A DNA stretch of 64,000 nucleotides, from positions 620,001-684,000 of the forward strand of contig CP011268.1 in NCBI GenBank assembly GCA_001007975.1. Reading direction: 5' to 3'. Each line of letters begins with the position of its first letter. Position 1 is the stretch's first letter. Both the position numbers and the translations under genes were made by a program. The notes beneath the pieces were generated by a model. It worked only from the letters and a program-made list of their open reading frames with translations, was not told where the DNA came from and searched no databases. Positions 3,661 through 52,907 of this stretch are shown here, one piece after another. The stretch is from a candidate division SR1 bacterium Aalborg_AAW-1. Its GTDB lineage: Bacteria; Patescibacteriota; Gracilibacteria; Absconditabacterales; Absconditicoccaceae.

Positions 3661-4629
3661 GTGAATATGGTAGTAACTATTGTAGTATTAGTAATTGGAT
3701 TACTTGCTCTTATCAAAGGAGCAGATTGGTTAGTAGATGGAGCATCAGCATTAGCCAAACAGTTTGGTGTACCAACTCTTGTGATTGGATTGACGATAGT
3801 AGCATTTGGTACGTCTATGCCAGAATTGCTTGTCAATGTGGTAGCTGCTATGAAATGAAATAGTGATATTGCTTTTGGTAATGTGATGTGAAGTAATATC
3901 GCTAATATCTTATTGATTTTGTGAGTAACCGGATTGATTACCACACTCAAAGTGCAAAAAGATACGACATGGAAAGAAATACCATTTGCATTGTTGGCGA
4001 TGCTGGTACTGTTTGTCTTGTCGAATACGATGTTATTAGATGGTACGGCTACGAATATTCTCACGAAGTCATGAGGAGTTATCTTATTGTTGTTATTTGC
4101 GATATTTTTGTATTATGTGTATGAAAGTACAAAAAAAGCTCCTGACACGGAAGATGATACACCAGTCCCATCAATGTCTTATCCTAAGATGGCGTTGTTT
4201 ATTGTGGGAGGTTTGCTAGGACTGTATTTTGGAGGGACATGGACGGTTGACAGTGCTGTAAAAATTGCAGAATACTTTTGATTGAGTGATTTTCTGATCT
4301 CTACGACTATCATAGCGATTGGTACATCGCTTCCTGAATTAGTCACTTCAGTAGCAGCAGCTCGTAAAAAAAGTGTCGATCTTGCAGTGGGTAATATTAT
4401 CGGAAGTAATATTTTTAATATTTTCTGGATATTATGAGTGACAGCTCTTATTAGACCTATTCCTCTTCCTGTAGGTGCTAACATGGATCTTCTTGTAGGT
4501 ACTCTTGCTACTATATTATTGTTCTTGTTTATGTTTATCGGTAAACGTCATACTTTACAGAGACGACAGTCAGTGTTATTTATTCTCTTGTATATCGTCT
4601 ATGTCGTTATTGTGATTATGAGAGGATAA
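3661..4629 (+). CDS. Na+/Ca2+ exchanger, CaCA family (YrbG-like)
   Basis: 322 aa polytopic membrane protein. It has the two inverted alpha-repeats of the cation/Ca2+ exchanger family: [15 protein letters not shown] with [16 protein letters not shown] in the first half, and [16 protein letters not shown] with [16 protein letters not shown] in the second. The acidic residues in both PEL motifs are the ion ligands in the family. A GTG start at 3661 gives this length; an ATG six bases later is equally possible. A hairpin terminator follows directly. The family extrudes Ca2+ in exchange for Na+ or H+; the coupling ion is not readable here. Confidence 0.92.
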
Positions 4630-4654
4630 TCATATCGTCATACAAAAAAAAGAC

Positions 4655-4687
4655 AAGCACTTTCACCCTGTCAGAAGGTGCTTTTTT
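4655..4687 (+). terminator. Rho-independent terminator after the CaCA exchanger
   Basis: The stem AAGCACTTT/AAGGTGCTT, with one mismatch and an 11-base loop, is followed by a T-run. Confidence 0.8.
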
Positions 4688-4730
4688 GTATATTAACTTA
4701 TTATGGAATATAATGAGATAACTTTATATT

Positions 4731-4997
4731 ATGATAGAAGAGATGAAAAACAAATTTTCCTGACTGTCATTACGTCGAGACAAACATTTTGTGCGTAATT
4801 TAGTCATCGCGATAGGTGTAGTGCTGGTATGGAGAGGGGTATGGCATCTGGCTGATGAATATCTTTTCCCGAATCATCCGACATTATCGAGTATTGTATC
4901 TTTACTCGTTGGTATTATTGTCCTCTATCTTCCTGATGGGACATTAGAGCATCTTGGTGGTTATAAAAAAGAGGAGGAGAAAAAGGAAAAAAAATAA
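4731..4997 (+). CDS. Small membrane protein of unknown function
   Basis: 88 aa. A basic N-terminus (KNKFSGLSLRRDKHF) precedes two hydrophobic segments (about residues 21-36 and 46-64) separated by HLADEYLFPNHP, and the tail is very rich in Lys and Glu. Proteins of this shape are frequent in candidate-phyla genomes and have no assigned role. The ATG at 4731 was chosen because one UGA-Gly at codon 11 lies upstream of the only alternative start, a GTG at 4791 that would cut into the first hydrophobic segment. Confidence 0.7.
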
Positions 4998-5331
4998 TGA
5001 AGCAGTCATTAGACATACTATGAAGTATTTTCTATACTATGTTTGTTTTGCCGCATTCGCTTCGCAAGACCTTGTATGGTAATTTACTTTTTCCTTGATG
5101 TAAAAGTAAACAAAAAAATGACCGAAGGAAATCCCTGTGGGACAAGAACTCATCAAAACTTGCAGATACTTTGGTATCCCTATTTCAGTACTGAGTGTTG
5201 GGTGGAGGCCATAAGCTATATCGGGTAGCGATTTACGTTGAGATTGTGATTCATGTTGCGTTGGTTGCTTCGAACAGGTTGATGAGTTCGGTTTATCTTT
5301 TTTTAATGGATTGGGTTGTTATAAAAAACTC
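4998..5331. other. Gene-poor stretch, no supported gene
   Basis: About 330 bases without a convincing gene. A standard-code open frame at 5043-5228 encodes a peptide with the CGTRTH signature that I associate with spurious ORFs over repeated or structured DNA, and it has no ribosome binding site. The base composition is somewhat richer in G and C than its surroundings. It may be a decayed repeat; nothing more can be supported. Confidence 0.4.
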
Positions 5332-5365: not shown

Positions 5366-5497
5366 TATGATCATCAGTCGCTTGGCACTAAATACGGTAA
5401 TCACAACAACACTTATCATCAGATAGGCAGTTTTGTGCGAAAAGAAAAATATCCCACAATGACTATATCGCTTATCTGAAGACAGATGAGCTTTTTT
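5366..5497 (+). ncRNA. Candidate small RNA or leader RNA
   Basis: A stretch of about 130 bases lies between a well-formed promoter and a terminator (stem GCTTATCTG/CAGATGAGC at 5470-5491, then six T), with no open frame worth naming. It could be an independent small RNA or an attenuator leader of the gene starting at 5515. I could not match it to tmRNA, SRP RNA, 6S RNA, T-box or a riboswitch by eye. Confidence 0.45.
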
Positions 5498-5514
5498 ATT
5501 AAATTGGTTGTGTT

Positions 5515-6039
5515 ATGAATTATTTTGATCATTTAATTATAGCAGATTGAGGAAATTTTCGAGGCAATCTCTGGACTGCTATTTGAGCAATTTGAACGAT
5601 TATAACTTCTATAATTATTATCCGTATTAATCAAAAACAAATACAATTAGAGCATAAACAAAAATATAATATAGAATTAAAAATTATAGAAGATTCTTTG
5701 AAAAATACTGAAGAATGACTTACTCAATTGCCGGAATATTGATTTATTAATGATAATTTTCAAAGACTTAGTCTAATTAATTACTGAAATTGAGAAGCTA
5801 AAAAAATATTTATCACATTATTATATAACGATAATGAATATAAAGATTATATAAGTTTTATAAGTTCTAAAGAAATTCGCTATCTTTTTTCTCAAATTAT
5901 AAAAAGTAAAATTCCATTTTATCAGATTTGAAAAGAATTGAAAATTAATTTTAAATATTATGATGAATTATGAAAAAAACACAGTAAAGATCTTTGTTAT
6001 AAAATACAAGAAAATTACATTTTAGAACGTCAATACTAA
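5515..6039 (+). CDS. Hypothetical single-pass membrane protein
   Basis: 174 aa. A short N-terminus is followed by a UGA-rich hydrophobic segment (about residues 19-34, GAIGTIITSIIIIR) and then a charged, helix-prone cytoplasmic-type region starting INQKQIQLEHKQKY. At least eight Gly are UGA codons, so the gene only exists under table 25. I do not recognise a family. The gene sits between the candidate small RNA and thrS. Confidence 0.6.
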
Positions 6040-32401: not shown

Positions 32402-35400
32402 CTATTTTTTCCAATTTTCTCTTGGTACAAAATGCATCATATCAAGCGTGGTATAAGTCTTTTTTGGAAGACCAGCTATGATTATATCGTTGCCAAATAG
32501 ATTTGTGATAGTATCATATTTTTTCTTAAACAGATTCTCTTCTATCATCATCTGGGCCTCATCGTATCATACATATGTGGAATGGTAAGTCGTTCAGTCA
32601 ATAGTATAAATGTGTTTTTTTGGATTGATAATATTTTGTAATTTCAGAGGAATATTGTCATTATCATAGAGATAGAATATTTTCAATTCTTCAAATGGCG
32701 TCTGAGTGATAAATAATGAGTTTTGAACATCTAATCAACTAAATCATTCGTTATTCATTATATGAACTTCGTCTAATAATGTATTTGTAGGAGCAAGTAT
32801 TCATACGATTTTCACGCTTGGAAGTCAGAAGAAATCGTTTAAGCTATCTCAAGCTTTTTTGATCAATCCCTCCTCTTTCATCATTTGAGCTTCTTTGAAA
32901 CCTATAATTATTTCCGGTTCCGTACCAAATAATCATGTTCATTCTGATATTTTTAATCCACTTAGTAACTGATCTGTTCATAAGAATATTTTTGGTACTC
33001 ATCATGGAGTAAATCAGATTTTATTTGGAGTATTTATCATAAATTGGTTTAAATCAGTTCTCAGTGCAGGACTAAGTTTCTGGGACAAGGAAGAAATGTT
33101 TTGTCCACTTCATATCTGAGCAAAATTTCGGAAAAATCCTAGAAATACGACCGTCATAATAACTGGGGCGAATATTGATATCCAATTTTTTCTATGAGTA
33201 TGGAAGAATTTAAGTAAGAGAGAATTTATAACTACAGAGACCGAACTCATTGCCATAGCTAGTCATGCAAATTCTGGTTTGAGAACAAGTCCTAATGATG
33301 CCAATGCTCCACCGGCGATAGGAATTCACAAAACATTGTAGAACAAAGCGAAGAACATATTCTGTTTAATTTTTCATACGGTTTCTTTGCTAAGTTTGAT
33401 AGCAGTGATAACATCGTTTAGATCGTTTTTCATGATAACCACGTTTCCTGATTCCATAGCAACATCAGCTCAGGAGCCCATTGCAATTCAAACATCTGCC
33501 TGTGTAAGCGCAGGAGAATCATTTATTCAATCTCCTACCATAGCGACGATATGTCATTGGTCTTGAAGTTCTTTGACTTTCGAAGCTTTGTTTTCTGGAA
33601 GGACTTGAGCAAAAACATGATCAATTCAGACTTGATTCGCTATTGCTTGAGCCGTTCTCTGGTTGTCTCCAGTCATCATATAAACTTGAATTCACATCGC
33701 TTTTAGTCTTTTGATTGCTTCGATTGATGTATCTTTGATCGTATCGGCGACTGATATTGTTCAGATCATTTCTTTGTCTGTAGCTATTAGCATCACAGTC
33801 TTTCATTCTGATTCTAATTGCTCTATACTATACTGGTCTATGACTGGAATATTATTTTCTGTAAGTAATATTTTGGTACCAAGGAAATAAATCTGACCAT
33901 CTATTTCTCATATCACTCATTTTCCAGGAATTGCTTGGAAATTGGAAACAGTAGAAAATCAGATTCTTTTCTCTTTTCAATATCTAACGATAGCCTCTGC
34001 CAATGGATGTTCTGATTTGGATTCCAGTCAGACTGCTATTTGCAAAATCAAATCTTGGTCGTATCCATCCACTGATGTGATGTCGGTAACTTCTGGTTTT
34101 CATTCTGTGATAGTTCAGGTTTTGTCGAAAACGATCATATCTACTTTACAAAGAGTTTCGAGTGGTTCTCATCATTTGATAAGAATTCATTTTTCGGCTC
34201 ATTTACCAGTTCATACCATTAGGGCTGTTGGTGTAGCGAGACCCAATGCACATGGACAAGCAATTACTATCACTGCCGCGAAATAAAGCAATGCCGTAGC
34301 AAAACTTACTCATAGGAAGAAGAATCGGATTAAGAAAACGACGATCGCTATCCCAATAACAGAAGGCACAAATATTCAGGATATTTTGTCTGCAAATCAT
34401 TGGATTGGCGCCTTGGATCATTGTGCCTCTTGAATAAGTTTGATAATCTGAGCAAGAGCTGTTTCATTTCCAACTTTGGTTACTTCGAATTCGAAGCTTC
34501 AGAGCTTATTGATTGTTCATCCAAATACTTTTGATCAAGTGTTTTTTTCTACTGGCATACTTTCTCCGGTCAGCATAGATTCATCTATACTTGAATGTCA
34601 GGAGATAATCATTCAATCAATAGGTATTTTTTCACCTGGCTTTACTAATATAATATCTCATTTTTTTACTTGATCTATATCTACATCCACGAAACTAGTT
34701 CCTCTTTTTACTTTGGCTGTCTTGGGCGCTAGTCACATAAGTTTGGCTATAGCTTGAGATGTCGATCACTTTGCTCTGGCTTCCAGATATTTTCATAGTG
34801 CGACAAACATTATAAGCAAGCTTGATATTTCAAAGTAGATATTTCAGATTTTCTCTCAGTTTAATCAAATCCAGGATCATGTTTGATAGATAAAGAGAAT
34901 AAAATTATATAAACTGAAAATAAATGCTACTCAGGTTCATATTGCTATGAGGCTATACATATTAAATGTCTTCATTTTCAACGCAGATCGTGCTCATTTG
35001 AAAAAGTCTGCTCAGATGATGAATTGGATAGGGGTTGTCAAAATCAATGAAACGATAGCCATTCGTGGCATTATCAATCATCACCAAGGCAACAGTCATG
35101 GGAAAAAATCGTATAACATAAATATAATCATTGGCACACTAAGCAATGCCGAAATACTGAATTTTCTCCATCGATATTTTGTTTCTTTTTTCCTTTTTTC
35201 TGTTTCGTCTATTTTCTGAATTTCATCTTGGATAACTCATGTATATCAAGCATTTTCTACTGCCTTGATTAACTGATCTTGTGATATATTTCAAGCAACT
35301 TTGACCATAGCTTGTGAAGAAGAAAAGTTTACGTTGGCATTTTGTACGCCCGGCACTTTCTTAAGTGACTTTTCTATGAGCAGCGCACATGAAGAACAAT

Positions 35401-35722
35401 GCATTCCTTCTATATCTATGGAAAGCATTTGAGATGAATTTAAAGAATTGGACTCAGGTTGAATTTCATTTTGGATTGAATTATATTCTTGATAGCTATT
35501 TTCCTTTCATTTTGTGTGAACAGTATATCATGTTCATTCTTGTATAGAAGATATGATTTTATCTGGATTTATTTCTCCAGGATTGTATTGAATTTCTACT
35601 TCCTTGTTTGGTAAAGAAATAGAAACTGACTGTATTCATTGTAGTCATGACATACTAGCTTTGACTAGTTTTTCACAAGAGGGACAATGAATTTCTGGTA
35701 TTATTACAAGTATTTTTGTCAT
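32402..35722 (-). CDS. copA: Cu+-exporting P1B-type ATPase CopA with a duplicated C-terminal extension
   Basis: 1106 aa. Two N-terminal heavy-metal domains (HCPSC at residues 12-16, MHCSSC at 107-112) lead into a P1B-1 ATPase: membrane metal site ACPCALG, actuator TGES, phosphorylation motif DKTGT (its Gly is UGA), SEHPLAEA, and hinge GDGINDSPA. TM motifs near MSSVSVVINSLLLK match Cu+ pumps. After the usual end (~residue 860) about 240 further residues follow: one extra hydrophobic helix and a soluble part with an internal repeat (EAQMMKEEGLIKK...LLDEVHIMN and EAQMMIEENLFKK...LDMMHFVP). Last gene of the csoR operon. Pumps Cu+ out of the cytoplasm. Confidence 0.93.
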
Positions 35723-35749
35723 TTGAATTATGGAATTAAAAATAAAAGA

Positions 35750-35959
35750 TTAAATTACTTTATATCCAGTTTCTTTTTGGATGTGATTTGCTATTTTGTC
35801 TCTAGATATAATTCCATCATCATATTCGATATCAACTGTTTTTGTTTGACTATTTACTGATGATTGTTTGATACCAGGAAATTCTTTCAACGATAACTTG
35901 ATGAGGGCTTCACAAGATGAACAATGAATTTGTGGAATAGATAATGTCATATTTTTCAT
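35750..35959 (-). CDS. CopZ-like copper chaperone (single HMA domain)
   Basis: 69 aa, one ferredoxin-like heavy-metal domain with the metal motif HCSSC at residues 12-16 and a typical ending ANHIQKETGYKVI. It would carry Cu+ to the ATPase encoded 27 bases downstream. Part of the minus-strand copper operon. Confidence 0.9.
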   Translation of the reverse strand: MKNMTLSIPQIHCSSCEALIKLSLKEFPGIKQSSVNSQTKTVDIEYDDGIISRDKIANHIQKETGYKVI

Positions 35960-35999
35960 ATTTTGAATTTTGATAAAGAATAAAATTATGAAGATTATA

Positions 36000-37355
36000 T
36001 TATTTAACTACTATCTTCGCATTATGTGAAAGTCACATCGCACAGTCGAACTCATATTCTCATGCAGTAGCTGCATGTACAACAAATGTAATCTGATTTC
36101 ATTTTTTTATAGATTGAATATTCTCATCTAATCCTGGGATATAGATTGTACTCATGCATCCATAAATGTTTGTCTCAATATCAATTACTATCGTATAAGT
36201 TTTATCTATTTGTAGGTTTACTACTGATGGGGTTAATCCTGAATCAGTATAGGTCATGTTTATAATTTGTGTAGATTGATTGCTATTTACACTTGTATTT
36301 GTTTCTCACGAATGGAATCTCGTTGCTACGACACTATAGGAGTTTGCAATATTGTATAATCCAAGAAGAATAACTAATACTCAAATAGCTTTGAATGCAA
36401 TTTGTGCTGTTTTTCCTTTGAATATACTTGTCAAGCTTCAGATACCCATAAGCCCTGGCAATGTACCTATAGCAAAAAGTGCCATCACGATCATTCACAT
36501 TCAGAAACTTCCTGTATTCATTGCATATATTTGCATTGCAAAAGTGAATCCGCAAGGTAAGAAGAATGTTAATACTCAACTACTAAATGTTCATAAATAT
36601 TTTCTGAATCAAGTATCTTTATCTTGAAGTAAGTCAGTTTCTTTCTTTGCAAACAACCTTCATGTTGGTAAACTTAATGATACTGAGCTTAATTTTGGTG
36701 ATATATGTGTTAGATTGACTCACAACATTATCATAACAACTCACACTATGAGTGTCATGATTGACATCATAAATGGTGATAACCTAATAACTGATCCAAA
36801 CAATCATAACAGTCCTCACAAAATACCGAATCAGATTATTCTTCAAGCATTAAACCAAAAATGAGGAATAATTTTTTGTCCGAATGTTTGTTTATTATTA
36901 CTTTTATTCCACTTGCTAGATATTGCTAACACTAATCATCCAACCACAGCCATACAACTTGAGAAACCAGCAGTTATTCAGATAAGAAGTACAAGTGATA
37001 GTGAGGGTGATCATTGAGATTTGATGTCAAACAATGATGATACTCCAGTTTTGCTTAATATAAAGTATAAAAACATAAATCAAAGCAAGCTCAGAATCAT
37101 TACCTTATAATCATCGATATTTTTGCTTAACCAAGGATTACTAGTTACTTCTTCACTAACTTCATAGCCGCACTCATGAACAACATTTCTAATATCATCC
37201 ATATTAGGGATTTTCTCATATCAGATAGTTACTGTTCATTTAGAAATATTAGCTTGTACAGTTTCTATTTTATCAATCTTAGAAATGGATTTTTCCAAAA
37301 GTAATTTACACGAATTACAGTGCATACCTTTGATATTGATTGTTGTGAGTTTCAT
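36000..37355 (-). CDS. HMA / TauE-SafE (UreH_2-like) membrane / cupredoxin-like fusion protein
   Basis: 451 aa in three parts. Residues 1-70 are a heavy-metal domain with MHCNSC. Residues ~85-345 are a six- to seven-helix membrane domain of the TauE/SafE-UreH_2-DsbD kind, with Cys in GFSSCMAVVGG and LPCGFTFAMQ. The C-terminal ~100 residues end in a cupredoxin-like metal site: VVHAATAGEYEFDCAMGLSH, with the Cys, Met and His that bind copper in that fold. About 24 of 43 Gly are UGA by hand count. Likely moves or buffers copper across the membrane for the operon. Confidence 0.85.
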
Positions 37356-47881: not shown

Positions 47882-48586
47882 TTAGTTTAAAGGCTTAAAG
47901 GTTGATATTATTTCTTGGAAATAGTTGAGCCATCCTCCATGTTCCGTTAAAAGATCTACTAAATCAGTGGCTATATCTTGCGGTCAGAAATAACTAAAGT
48001 AATACTTATTATTGAATCATAGGAGATCTATAGAACAAGATGGGTCTGAATTAGTGATACATCTTTGATATTCTTTGCGATATCATTCAGGAGTTCGCAC
48101 AATTATACCAAATACATCAACATGTCATGTAATATAATCAGATGTACTATCTCGCTTTGATAATTCTGGATTAGGTATTCCTGGCCATCAGGATTCTTGT
48201 GTAGGTAATGTGATATGGATAGATTTTATAAATCATGAATAAAAGGATTGTACTTCTTCACTAGGTTGATAAATAAAGGCTGTGTACTCTTCCCATCACT
48301 TAGGTAAAATAAGTTGAAATCAGAACTCTGTATTTGTATAGACGAGAGGATTATTACTCTGTGGATTTGTGGTTCATGTGACGAGTTGGATAGTTCATGA
48401 TGTGATCTTTCCTGAAGCTTCTGAGAGAAAATCTGTAGATCAAGAAGTGTTGTTTGATGAAGAGATAATCTCTCCAGAGAGTGCAGTTTTCTGTTGTTGT
48501 ATATGAGTTTTCGGAAATTTAATAAAAACTGCTACTCCAATACCAACAAGGATAAGAATAATGATGATAAGTAATGGTTTTTTCAT
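47882..48586 (-). CDS. Membrane-anchored hypothetical protein, paralog A
   Basis: 234 aa. One N-terminal helix (KKPLLIIIILILVGIGVAVF) anchors an external domain after a Ser/Thr/Gly linker. The domain starts NTEFGFQLILPKGWEEY, reminiscent of PsbP-like folds. It is paralogous to the gene at 52061-52747; the first ~110 residues are nearly identical and the rest has drifted. Function unknown. Confidence 0.75.
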
Positions 48587-50549: not shown

Positions 50550-50882
50550 GGATAGGTGTTAAGAATTAAGAATTAGCAATTAAATAGTAATGAAATACAT
50601 ATTTGATACAATAAAAAAATCGTCACATCTTGAGATGTCGTATTTATTTTGATATTGACGAAGTATACTATATCAAACAATCTCTTGAAATGGCTTATAT
50701 ATATCACTATATACATAGTATGATTGTCTAATATAGTATGATTGTCTAATCATGAGTATGTTGTCATCAAGATGAGATGATGTATTCCGTAGGTTCTAGA
50801 TTCGCCTATGTCATCAACCATGGACATTTTTTTTGTCCAAAAAATCTACAATATAATATAAAACCTTAAAAAATCAAGAAAA
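50550..50882. other. Intergenic region with a hairpin and an 18-bp tandem repeat
   Basis: Holds a terminator-like hairpin (GACATCTC/GAGATGTG-type, 50613-50635) whose T-run is on the minus strand, although no minus-strand gene precedes it, and two adjacent exact copies of an 18-base unit (50715-50732, 50733-50750). The last 40 bases before the next gene are A/T-rich and lack a Shine-Dalgarno sequence. Nothing coding is seen. Confidence 0.5.
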
Positions 50883-52007
50883 ATGAAAAATGTAAGTACA
50901 GAAATCAAAAACAAAACAGTAAACACATTAAATGTAACAACAATGAAAACAAAAATTCACATCATGGCGGTATGTCTGCTTAGTGTAGTAATGGTTATCT
51001 CATGCAGTAAGTATGAGGATGACTTAGTAGTAGATGAGACTATGTCTCAGAAATCAGCTCAAGGTGATTTTGAAATGCAACTTATGAGTACGAGTAGTAC
51101 AGTCATTAATATTGCTCCATCAAGTGGCTATACCTCCAATAGTAGTGTGACCATACCTGCTCATAAAGGAATGAGTGCTGCAGTAGGTGGTGTTATCCGT
51201 GCAAGAGTACTTTATAGGATTGGAACTTCTAATTCATTTAGAGTAGAAATTAGTAAGCAAGATGGAGGTAATTTTACCACAGCAGGGACGGCTCTTGTAA
51301 GAATAAAATCTACAAGCGGCGTTGTTGCTACAGGTTCATCTATAGCATTACCTCTTGGGCAGAACAAAGTTGAAACAACTATTACAGGTTCTTTTGGGCA
51401 AGGCATCCTACATTTCTATCCTATGGTAGAATCAAGTACAGGTACTAGATATTATGCTGAGCCATTTCTGATGTATAGTGTCCCAATGTACAATATCAAA
51501 AGTTCTTATACTACTGGTGAAGAAATAGGTAGAACAAATGATGTTATTGTGAAGGCTGCTGGTACGTATTTACAAGGTAGTGGATTAAGTGTACAATGTA
51601 CAGAATTCTGTAACCGTTATTATGTAAATGTATATAATAAAAGTACTGCAATAAATAGTGCTGGTCAAATTGGTAATGCTAAAGATTGGTACGGTTATGC
51701 TTCAGTTAAAGGATTAGTACAAGTTCCAAATGGTTCAGCGCCAAGACCCGGAGATATTCTTTGTATGGACAATTATCCATCTGCTTCTGATAAATATGGT
51801 CATGTAGCTATTGTTATTGAAGTAGTTAATGGAACTAATGGTTACATTAAAATAGCTCAGCAAAATGCTGGTAAAGTTCCATTGGGAGTATCTAATTATG
51901 ATACCCGTTGGGAGCATGCTATAGGAGGTCAATTGTCTTATAATTCATCAACTAAAATAATTACACCACCTCCAGGATTTAAAATTCAAGGTTTGTTACG
52001 ATTGTAA
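50883..52007 (+). CDS. CHAP-domain lipoprotein, probably acquired from Bacteroidota
   Basis: 374 aa. The lipoprotein signal ends VMVISCSKYEDD, the style of Bacteroidota surface lipoproteins (Cys-Ser followed by acidic residues). After a beta-rich domain (SSVTIPAHKGMSAAVGGVIR) a CHAP cysteine peptidase/amidase domain shows catalytic Cys in VQCTEFCNRYY and His in DKYGHVAIVIE, preceded by PRPGDI. All 36 Gly are GGN, none UGA, unlike nearly every neighbour. Likely cleaves peptidoglycan at the cell surface or in a neighbouring cell. Confidence 0.88.
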   Translation: MKNVSTEIKNKTVNTLNVTTMKTKIHIMAVCLLSVVMVISCSKYEDDLVVDETMSQKSAQGDFEMQLMSTSSTVINIAPSSGYTSNSSVTIPAHKGMSAAVGGVIRARVLYRIGTSNSFRVEISKQDGGNFTTAGTALVRIKSTSGVVATGSSIALPLGQNKVETTITGSFGQGILHFYPMVESSTGTRYYAEPFLMYSVPMYNIKSSYTTGEEIGRTNDVIVKAAGTYLQGSGLSVQCTEFCNRYYVNVYNKSTAINSAGQIGNAKDWYGYASVKGLVQVPNGSAPRPGDILCMDNYPSASDKYGHVAIVIEVVNGTNGYIKIAQQNAGKVPLGVSNYDTRWEHAIGGQLSYNSSTKIITPPPGFKIQGLLRL

Positions 52008-52024: not shown

Positions 52025-52060
52025 AAAAAATCTTCCTAGTTGTTGCTAGGAAGATTTTTC
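52025..52060. terminator. Bidirectional terminator
   Basis: AATCTTCCTAG/CTAGGAAGATT, 11 bp with a 6-base loop, with an A-run before and a T-run after; serves the CHAP gene and the opposite paralog B. Confidence 0.85.
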
Positions 52061-52747
52061 TTAATCTAAGGATTTAAAGATTGGTAAAATATATTTTGGT
52101 TCTCCTCCATCTCATCGTTTTTCATAGAGATCTTTGGGCATTTCTTGTGGTCAAAAAGATGTAAAGTTATAATCTGTATTGCTTCATAGGAAATTTAAGA
52201 TAGTTGTACATGATGCGTTAGGGTAAGGAAAACACCTTTCATATTCTTTTTTATAGTCGCTTTTAAACCATATTCATACTGTTAACATCTCTGCATATCA
52301 TGGAATACGGTTGATAGTATCTGTGGTAGCTTTATTAGGATCTTCGGGTCCATATCGTTCTAATTTGGTAGGTAGTGCAATAGAGATAGATGCTATGGTT
52401 CACGGATATGTAGTATCTTGTTTGTGACGATATACAAACGCCTTATAATCTTCCCATCACTTTGGAAGTGTAAGTTGAAATCAGAACTCTGTATTCGTAT
52501 AGACGAGAGGATTATTACTCTGTGTATTTGTAGTTCATGTGACGAGTTGGATAGTTCATGATGTGATCTCTCCTGAAACTCCTGAGAGAAAATCTGTAGC
52601 TCAAGAAGTGATGTTTCATGAAGAGATAATCTCTCCAGAGAGTGGAGTTTCCTGTTGCTGTGTATGGGTTTTTGGAAAGTTGACAAAAACTGCTACTCCA
52701 ATACCAACAAGGAGGAGAAAAATGATAATGAGTAATGGTTTTTTCAT
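52061..52747 (-). CDS. Membrane-anchored hypothetical protein, paralog B
   Basis: 228 aa. Same architecture as paralog A at 47882-48586: N-terminal helix KKPLLIIIFLLLVGIGVAVF, linker with the same SGEIISS and GTIQLVTGTTN, then NTEFGFQLTLPKGWEDY. The C-terminal half differs and adds Cys in ERCFPYPNASCT, where A has QRCITNSDPSCS. Very high DNA identity in the first ~330 bases suggests recent gene conversion. Confidence 0.75.
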
Positions 52748-52784
52748 AATTATGTTGCATAAATAAAAAAAGATTGATCATACT

Positions 52785-52907
52785 CTATAGAAATACGTTA
52801 GTATTTCAATTGTAATAACGAAAAAATAAGTCTTTTGTGAGTTCTTGTATATATAATTCTTCCATTGCATCTCATTTCGATATAGGATCATCTTTGTTGA
52901 TTTTCAT
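52785..52907 (-). pseudogene. Possible gene remnant
   Basis: 40 aa from an ATG (MKINKDDPISKGDAMEELYI...). The same frame stays open about 38 codons further upstream (VAYRGELAEIITNIFVSFER) but offers no start codon and begins inside a terminator, so it looks like the 3' end of a decayed gene. Family not recognised. Confidence 0.3.

Follow-up and report, generated by a model that had tools for sequence, protein, structure and literature searches.

Genomes of the Absconditabacteria (SR1), in which UGA encodes glycine, appear to harbor mobile modules centered on a Bacteroidota-style lipoprotein written in the standard code, often a hydrolase and probably accompanied by a partner protein; we consider this reading reasonably probable. 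The class of genes in question displays an absence of UGA, a foreign-type lipobox, an A-rich leader, a 5′ element in eight instances, and three insertions into a prophage. Unlike the window gene alone, this class furnishes strong evidence. The window, i.e., the 64,000-nucleotide stretch analyzed here, spans positions 620001-684000 of the present genome (G000), a single contig of 1,044,756 bp with the UGA=Gly code; G032, G067, and G141 denote SR1 relatives and L-numbers denote loci (Table 1).

A CHAP lipoprotein gene lacking UGA

The open reading frame at 50883-52007 (forward strand), singled out by the earlier note for its 36 GGN codons and absence of UGA, is real and comprises 374 codons. Since the lipoprotein signal begins at Met21 (ATG 50943) and the alignment places the start of the G032 homolog at the same residue, the coding sequence 50943-52007 is likelier, and the preceding 60 nt look like an A-rich leader. 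A regular expression recognizes in MKTKIHIMAVCLLSVVMVISC both hallmarks of a bacterial lipoprotein, viz., a signal peptide and a lipobox cysteine (ISC, Cys41), and Pfam retrieves the CHAP domain (PF05257; residues 233-328, E=3.9e-14, 53.3 bits against a curated cut-off of 26), thereby bearing out the description of the product as a CHAP lipoprotein. As in other CHAP peptidoglycan hydrolases, the Cys and His motifs are present; Cys239, His307, and Asn328 are identical between the window protein and its G032 homolog (two sequences only) and, by CHAP family membership, are the putative catalytic residues. Unlike in those hydrolases, the N-terminal part matches no family, and the sole full-length relative found comes from another SR1 genome. 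By analogy to the family, the product would be an amidase or endopeptidase of peptidoglycan, anchored by its lipid and directed at the cell wall of a neighbor or host. An AlphaFold model built from the two sequences was too poor for use (mean pLDDT 38), and a sequence search of solved structures with the window protein returned no match.

Bacteroidota surface lipoproteins with an export signal possess a lipobox of the Ser type, acidic residues directly following the Cys, and an A-rich translation start. The window protein shares the Ser lipobox, acidic patch, and A-rich start, but is encoded in an SR1 genome, where its export is putative; its SKYEDD stretch resembles what we take to be the Bacteroidota lipoprotein export signal. 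The lipoprotein signal itself is of Bacteroidota type, as the earlier note had remarked. Exact matches to TCTCTTGAAATnGCnTATATATAT were confined, among the loci scanned, to the promoter-like site of the window and L015:7795, and the same TTGAAA-N17-TATATA arrangement precedes a second UGA-free lipoprotein gene of G000. A Bacteroidota-type promoter (TTG-N18-21-TAnnTTT) was set aside as too weak a signal (4 of 12 upstream regions against 11-14% of residents).

TGA accounts for 33% of the Gly codons in ORFs of at least 150 aa within a 468-kb sample of G000 (about 45% of the genome). A fitted beta-binomial on this sample gives a probability of 0.0097 for 0 TGA among 36 Gly; since ribosomal proteins, EF-Ts, NusA, and further G000 genes whose expression is presumably high are likewise UGA-free or nearly so, the window gene by itself is only suggestive. 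The surrounding genes are UGA-rich, as had been claimed, which sets the gene apart from replicons devoid of UGA throughout, such as the phages of Gracilibacteria and Absconditabacteria described as code-11-compatible, which avoid UGA and possibly infect bacteria of both code types (PMC10746230, Liu et al., 2023). The two phenomena are alike in UGA-free coding sequences tied to UGA=Gly hosts and possibly readable in both codes; however, entire phage genomes are UGA-free there, whereas here it is single genes inside UGA-rich phage or cellular genomes. Elsewhere in the window (32402-37355), two heavy-metal-domain-like genes use UGA for an unusually large share of their Gly (69 of 99 in one and 24 of 43 in the other, the overall figure being 33%). 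At L080 10301-11655, UGA is missing from a DHFR-like gene and from the adjoining thymidylate synthase gene (10 and 19 GGN), which are either immigrant or highly expressed.

Table 1. Coordinates of the window features and of related loci
Feature	Position	Strand	Remarks
Promoter-like TTGAAA-N17-TATATA	50685..50713	+	from sequence; putative function
5′ UTR element (model R1), divergent version	50760..50859	+	among the eight sequences behind the model
UGA-free CHAP lipoprotein CDS, preferred start	50943..52007	+	354 aa; earlier start 50883 gives 374 aa
Lipoprotein signal peptide MKTKIHIMAVCLLSVVMVISC	50943..51005	+	lipobox ISC, Ser at -1; sequence, regular-expression test
SKYEDDL acidic patch after Cys	51006..51026	+	resembles presumed Bacteroidota lipoprotein export signal
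CHAP domain	51579..51866	+	Pfam; Cys239, His307, Asn328 invariant with G032 homolog
Terminator-like hairpin AATCTTCCTAG...CTAGGAAGATT	52029..52062	.	between convergent genes; from sequence
Convergent exported-like UGA-rich gene, candidate partner	52061..52891	-	13 UGA; likely start gives 52061-52747
Paralog of candidate partner, exported-like	47882..48586	-	56% identical; 11 UGA
UGA-free secreted candidate, G000	L015 7984-8745		
UGA-free secreted candidate, G000	L036 4300-5124		
UGA-free secreted candidate, G000	L034 8685-9305		
UGA-free secreted candidate, G000	L036 11529-13136		
UGA-free secreted candidate, G000	in L065		108-aa lipoprotein
Two-gene insert	L014 7348-9307		one UGA-free lipoprotein, one UGA-rich exported-like gene
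Two-gene insert	L031 8322-10007		one UGA-free lipoprotein, one UGA-rich exported-like gene
Third insert	L031 2979-6068		replaces 752 bp of related phage; UGA-free M23 gene, two UGA-rich genes

A class of UGA-free secreted proteins and its marks

The gene had been interpreted as a single immigrant, but it is no one-off. The sampled 45% or so of G000 holds six UGA-free secreted candidates, the window gene included, and leader searches of 353 genomes of the class recovered four UGA-free lipoproteins from a single contig of G032 and three from a single contig of G067, i.e., in two other genera of the same family and on UGA-rich contigs. The four G032 genes total 97 GGN and 0 TGA, and the three of G067 about 52 GGN with no TGA ahead of their standard-code stop; in those sampled genes of these two genomes that do use TGA, it accounts for about 62% of Gly, and in the genes beside the lipoproteins UGA often encodes most glycines. 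The domains represented are CHAP (two in G032), M57, M23, and a weak match to phosphodiester-glycosidase; for several members Pfam recognizes no domain, and hydrolase function is therefore not established across the class. The M23 gene of G067 has a UGA at codon 358, followed by a hairpin and a T run before the next in-frame stop. The product of L036 11529-13136 (AQVGINNEAPLATLDV; 535 aa, UGA-free, 54 GGN) has a Flavobacteriaceae-like N-terminus, this part matching proteins of that family at 31-39% identity.

Several marks accompany the lack of UGA. The residue at lipobox -1 is Ser or Ala in 12 of 12 UGA-free lipoproteins as against Gly in 12 of 12 UGA-using ones (Fisher 7e-7, with a grouping made post hoc, after inspection of the sequences); the set comprises regular-expression lipoproteins of G000, G032, and G067, with the M23 gene added by hand. 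An exception from a fourth genome, G141, is a Ser-type lipoprotein with 5 UGA, with which P becomes 3e-6. Of the upstream cues cited in the earlier note, the A-rich character is distinctive, for in 9 of the 12 UGA-free genes the -40..-1 region reaches or exceeds the 97th percentile of residents; the missing Shine-Dalgarno is not diagnostic, because about 92% of resident genes also lack one. Codon usage beyond Gly is foreign in G032, partly so in G067, and resident-like in G000; the proposed codon-usage test thus gave no sign of immigration for the window gene, which Gly aside is indistinguishable from residents (z=0.25).

Shared leader, phage inserts, and neighboring genes

Six units, drawn from G032 and G067, have about 150 nt before the start in common; their 32-nt core varies at a single pyrimidine, and their 5′ UTRs are up to 96% identical where the mature domains differ. 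Ahead of the window gene and of L015 7984 stands a diverged version, which brings the number of copies to eight. The element is likely, though unproven, to be a structured RNA, as RNAalifold predicts hairpins with limited covariation and single folds are only modestly stable relative to shuffles. In Rfam no family reached its gathering score, with chance-level matches below it. The R1 model recovered from 99 relatives just the eight sequences of its own building set, and nothing from 201 Bacteroidaceae (a search in which the positive control was absent) or from 43 related SR1-phage loci; exact cores were likewise not found in viral contigs.

The G067 contig is a prophage, with matches to integrase, terminase, portal, head, and tape-measure proteins, and related phage loci were found in IMG/VR. 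Compared with phages about 95-97% identical over long stretches, its three UGA-free lipoprotein genes sit in three inserts. Two of these (L014 7348-9307 and L031 8322-10007) list no further gene of at least 80 aa, whereas the third carries additional UGA-rich genes, a lipoprotein (4412-5260) and a 153-aa ORF (5390-5851); hence, two of the three demonstrate the two-gene unit. As the inserts contain UGA-rich genes, their DNA was already of SR1 type before these insertions, which for those cases weakens a direct single-gene transfer from Bacteroidota. Every ORF of at least 100 aa with at least 6 GGN in the 43 SR1-phage loci compared (598 kb) contained TGA. A near-identical AAACTATyCAAATTGGAGT occurs at the right insert borders (L014 about 9312; L031 about 6080 and 9918) and in diverged form in related phages, a possible recombination or promoter site. 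The units recall phage morons or toxin-immunity cargo in having their own leader and terminator-like hairpin, lying between phage genes, and placing a hydrolase near an exported protein; they differ in that the neighboring genes use different genetic codes, the immunity role is putative, and one of the three inserts has extra UGA-rich genes.

The chosen neighbor is exported-like for 10 of 13 UGA-free genes against a background of 17%, with partners picked post hoc; for the M23 gene the upstream neighbor was taken, and its downstream one would bring the count to 9 of 13. From adjacency and the export-like N-terminus, the neighbor is possibly an inhibitor protecting its bearer. HMM searches detected no homology between neighbors of different genomes, including those of the two homologous CHAP genes; a 19-residue motif linking the window neighbor to its G032 counterpart (E=0.012) was not recovered by HMM, and we do not claim homology. 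The neighbors of two G032 CHAP lipoproteins (L013 3600-4847 and 10481-11593) share a 77% identical 179-aa stretch close to the N-terminus but are otherwise different. In the window, the candidate partner and its paralog flank superoxide-dismutase-like, phosphoesterase-like, and CHAP genes.

Provenance and alternative explanations

The closest full-length homolog of the window protein comes from G032 (37-38% identity), the sole genome with one among 59 relatives. The earlier note had anticipated the closest matches in Bacteroidota, yet the A1 profile retrieved only CHAP-domain matches, and no full-length relative, from 399 Bacteroidaceae and 393 Bacteroidales genomes; the searches made found no donor or close Bacteroidota relative. 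UGA-Gly in the nearest SR1 homologs had been named as evidence against immigration, and the G032 protein is UGA-free. With the window protein, a closest-relative scan of genome contigs and a search of phages yielded nothing, and plasmids gave one CHAP-only match; CHAP lipoprotein queries retrieved nothing in viral contigs. Of the original suggestion, the standard-code, Bacteroidota-style surface lipoprotein hydrolase in a UGA=Gly genome is supported; a recent gain from Bacteroidota, as stated, is not, given the lack of a donor in these searches and of foreign codon usage beyond Gly.

We propose that the units are self-contained and move laterally among Absconditabacteria, that each would carry a standard-code surface lipoprotein gene descended from a Bacteroidota source, and that the adjoining exported UGA-rich protein may be its cognate partner, possibly an inhibitor guarding the bearer. 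It is also quite possible that these are simple recent immigrants, single genes taken independently in each SR1 lineage from unsampled Bacteroidota, in which UGA has not yet arisen; this overlaps with circulating modules, differing in its denial of circulation within SR1. The patchy distribution (strong leader matches in 3 genomes among 353 of the class), a codon usage that is foreign in G032 and, in part, in G067, and the recency of the phage inserts fit such immigration, but it sits poorly with a 5′ element and leader family common to two SR1 genera, the prior SR1-type nature of the insert DNA, and the resident-like usage in G000. Likewise, when the leader pattern was used to extract stretches from an 84,980-species collection, all strong full-leader matches within these stretches lay on SR1 contigs.

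A less likely alternative is that selection maintains the standard code, with the lipoprotein being readable in a standard-code cell (a host or co-infected Bacteroidota) and the UGA-rich neighbor only in SR1. A 37% identical homolog pair that is UGA-free on both sides and G000 genes that are resident-like in all but Gly fit selection for standard-code readability; the UGA stop ahead of a terminator-like hairpin in the M23 gene, the Bacteroidota-type lipobox and A-rich leader, and the dual host range proposed for UGA-avoiding phages (PMC10746230) also accord with it. Against this, there is no known route for expressing SR1 DNA or mRNA in the host, a low-GC donor could account for the G000 codon usage, and recency explains most features, recency and unsampled donors together fitting most of the remainder. 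Recency and a need for standard-code reading thus each account for part of the data on the absence of UGA. More doubtful still are code-partitioned units, in which an SR1 bacterium or its phage would carry a lipoprotein that the code, leader, and surface signal of Bacteroidota keep readable to standard-code members of that phylum, next to an exported protein that can be read only where UGA means Gly; were this true, one stretch of DNA would specify different products in the two cell types.

Ordinary codon bias, with the lipoproteins merely being highly expressed SR1 genes that avoid UGA, is improbable: it accommodates the UGA-poor ribosomal proteins, EF-Ts, NusA, and others of G000 and a single-gene probability that is only moderately unusual, but the larger ribosomal proteins of G032 and G067 mostly use UGA (in L2, 6 of 32 and 10 of 34 Gly) as against none in their lipoproteins, and lipobox type, leader composition, and 5′ element track the absence of UGA. 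An assembly chimera or bin contamination is hardly credible, for although the G032 and G067 assemblies derive from metagenomes, G000 consists of a single 1.04-Mb contig, UGA-free genes alternate with UGA-rich ones along individual contigs of three assemblies, and the insert borders are defined by comparison with phage relatives.

A limited literature search found no description of such UGA-free genes inside UGA-rich SR1 genomes. One would expect gene exchange to be hampered where genetic codes differ; the surface proteins described here form a class that repeatedly crosses or straddles the code border, in three genera, in a UGA=Gly prophage, and in units with a common 5′ element, suggesting that genes move between, and are perhaps readable by, cells of two genetic codes. 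For such transfer, UGA serves as an inherent tracer and clock. In cyanobacterial mats, the co-occurrence of Absconditabacteria and Bacteroidetes is reported to have moderate support (PMC8406219). The present pattern likewise suggests Bacteroidota as partners of SR1 and supplies testable candidates for the enzymes and protectors involved.
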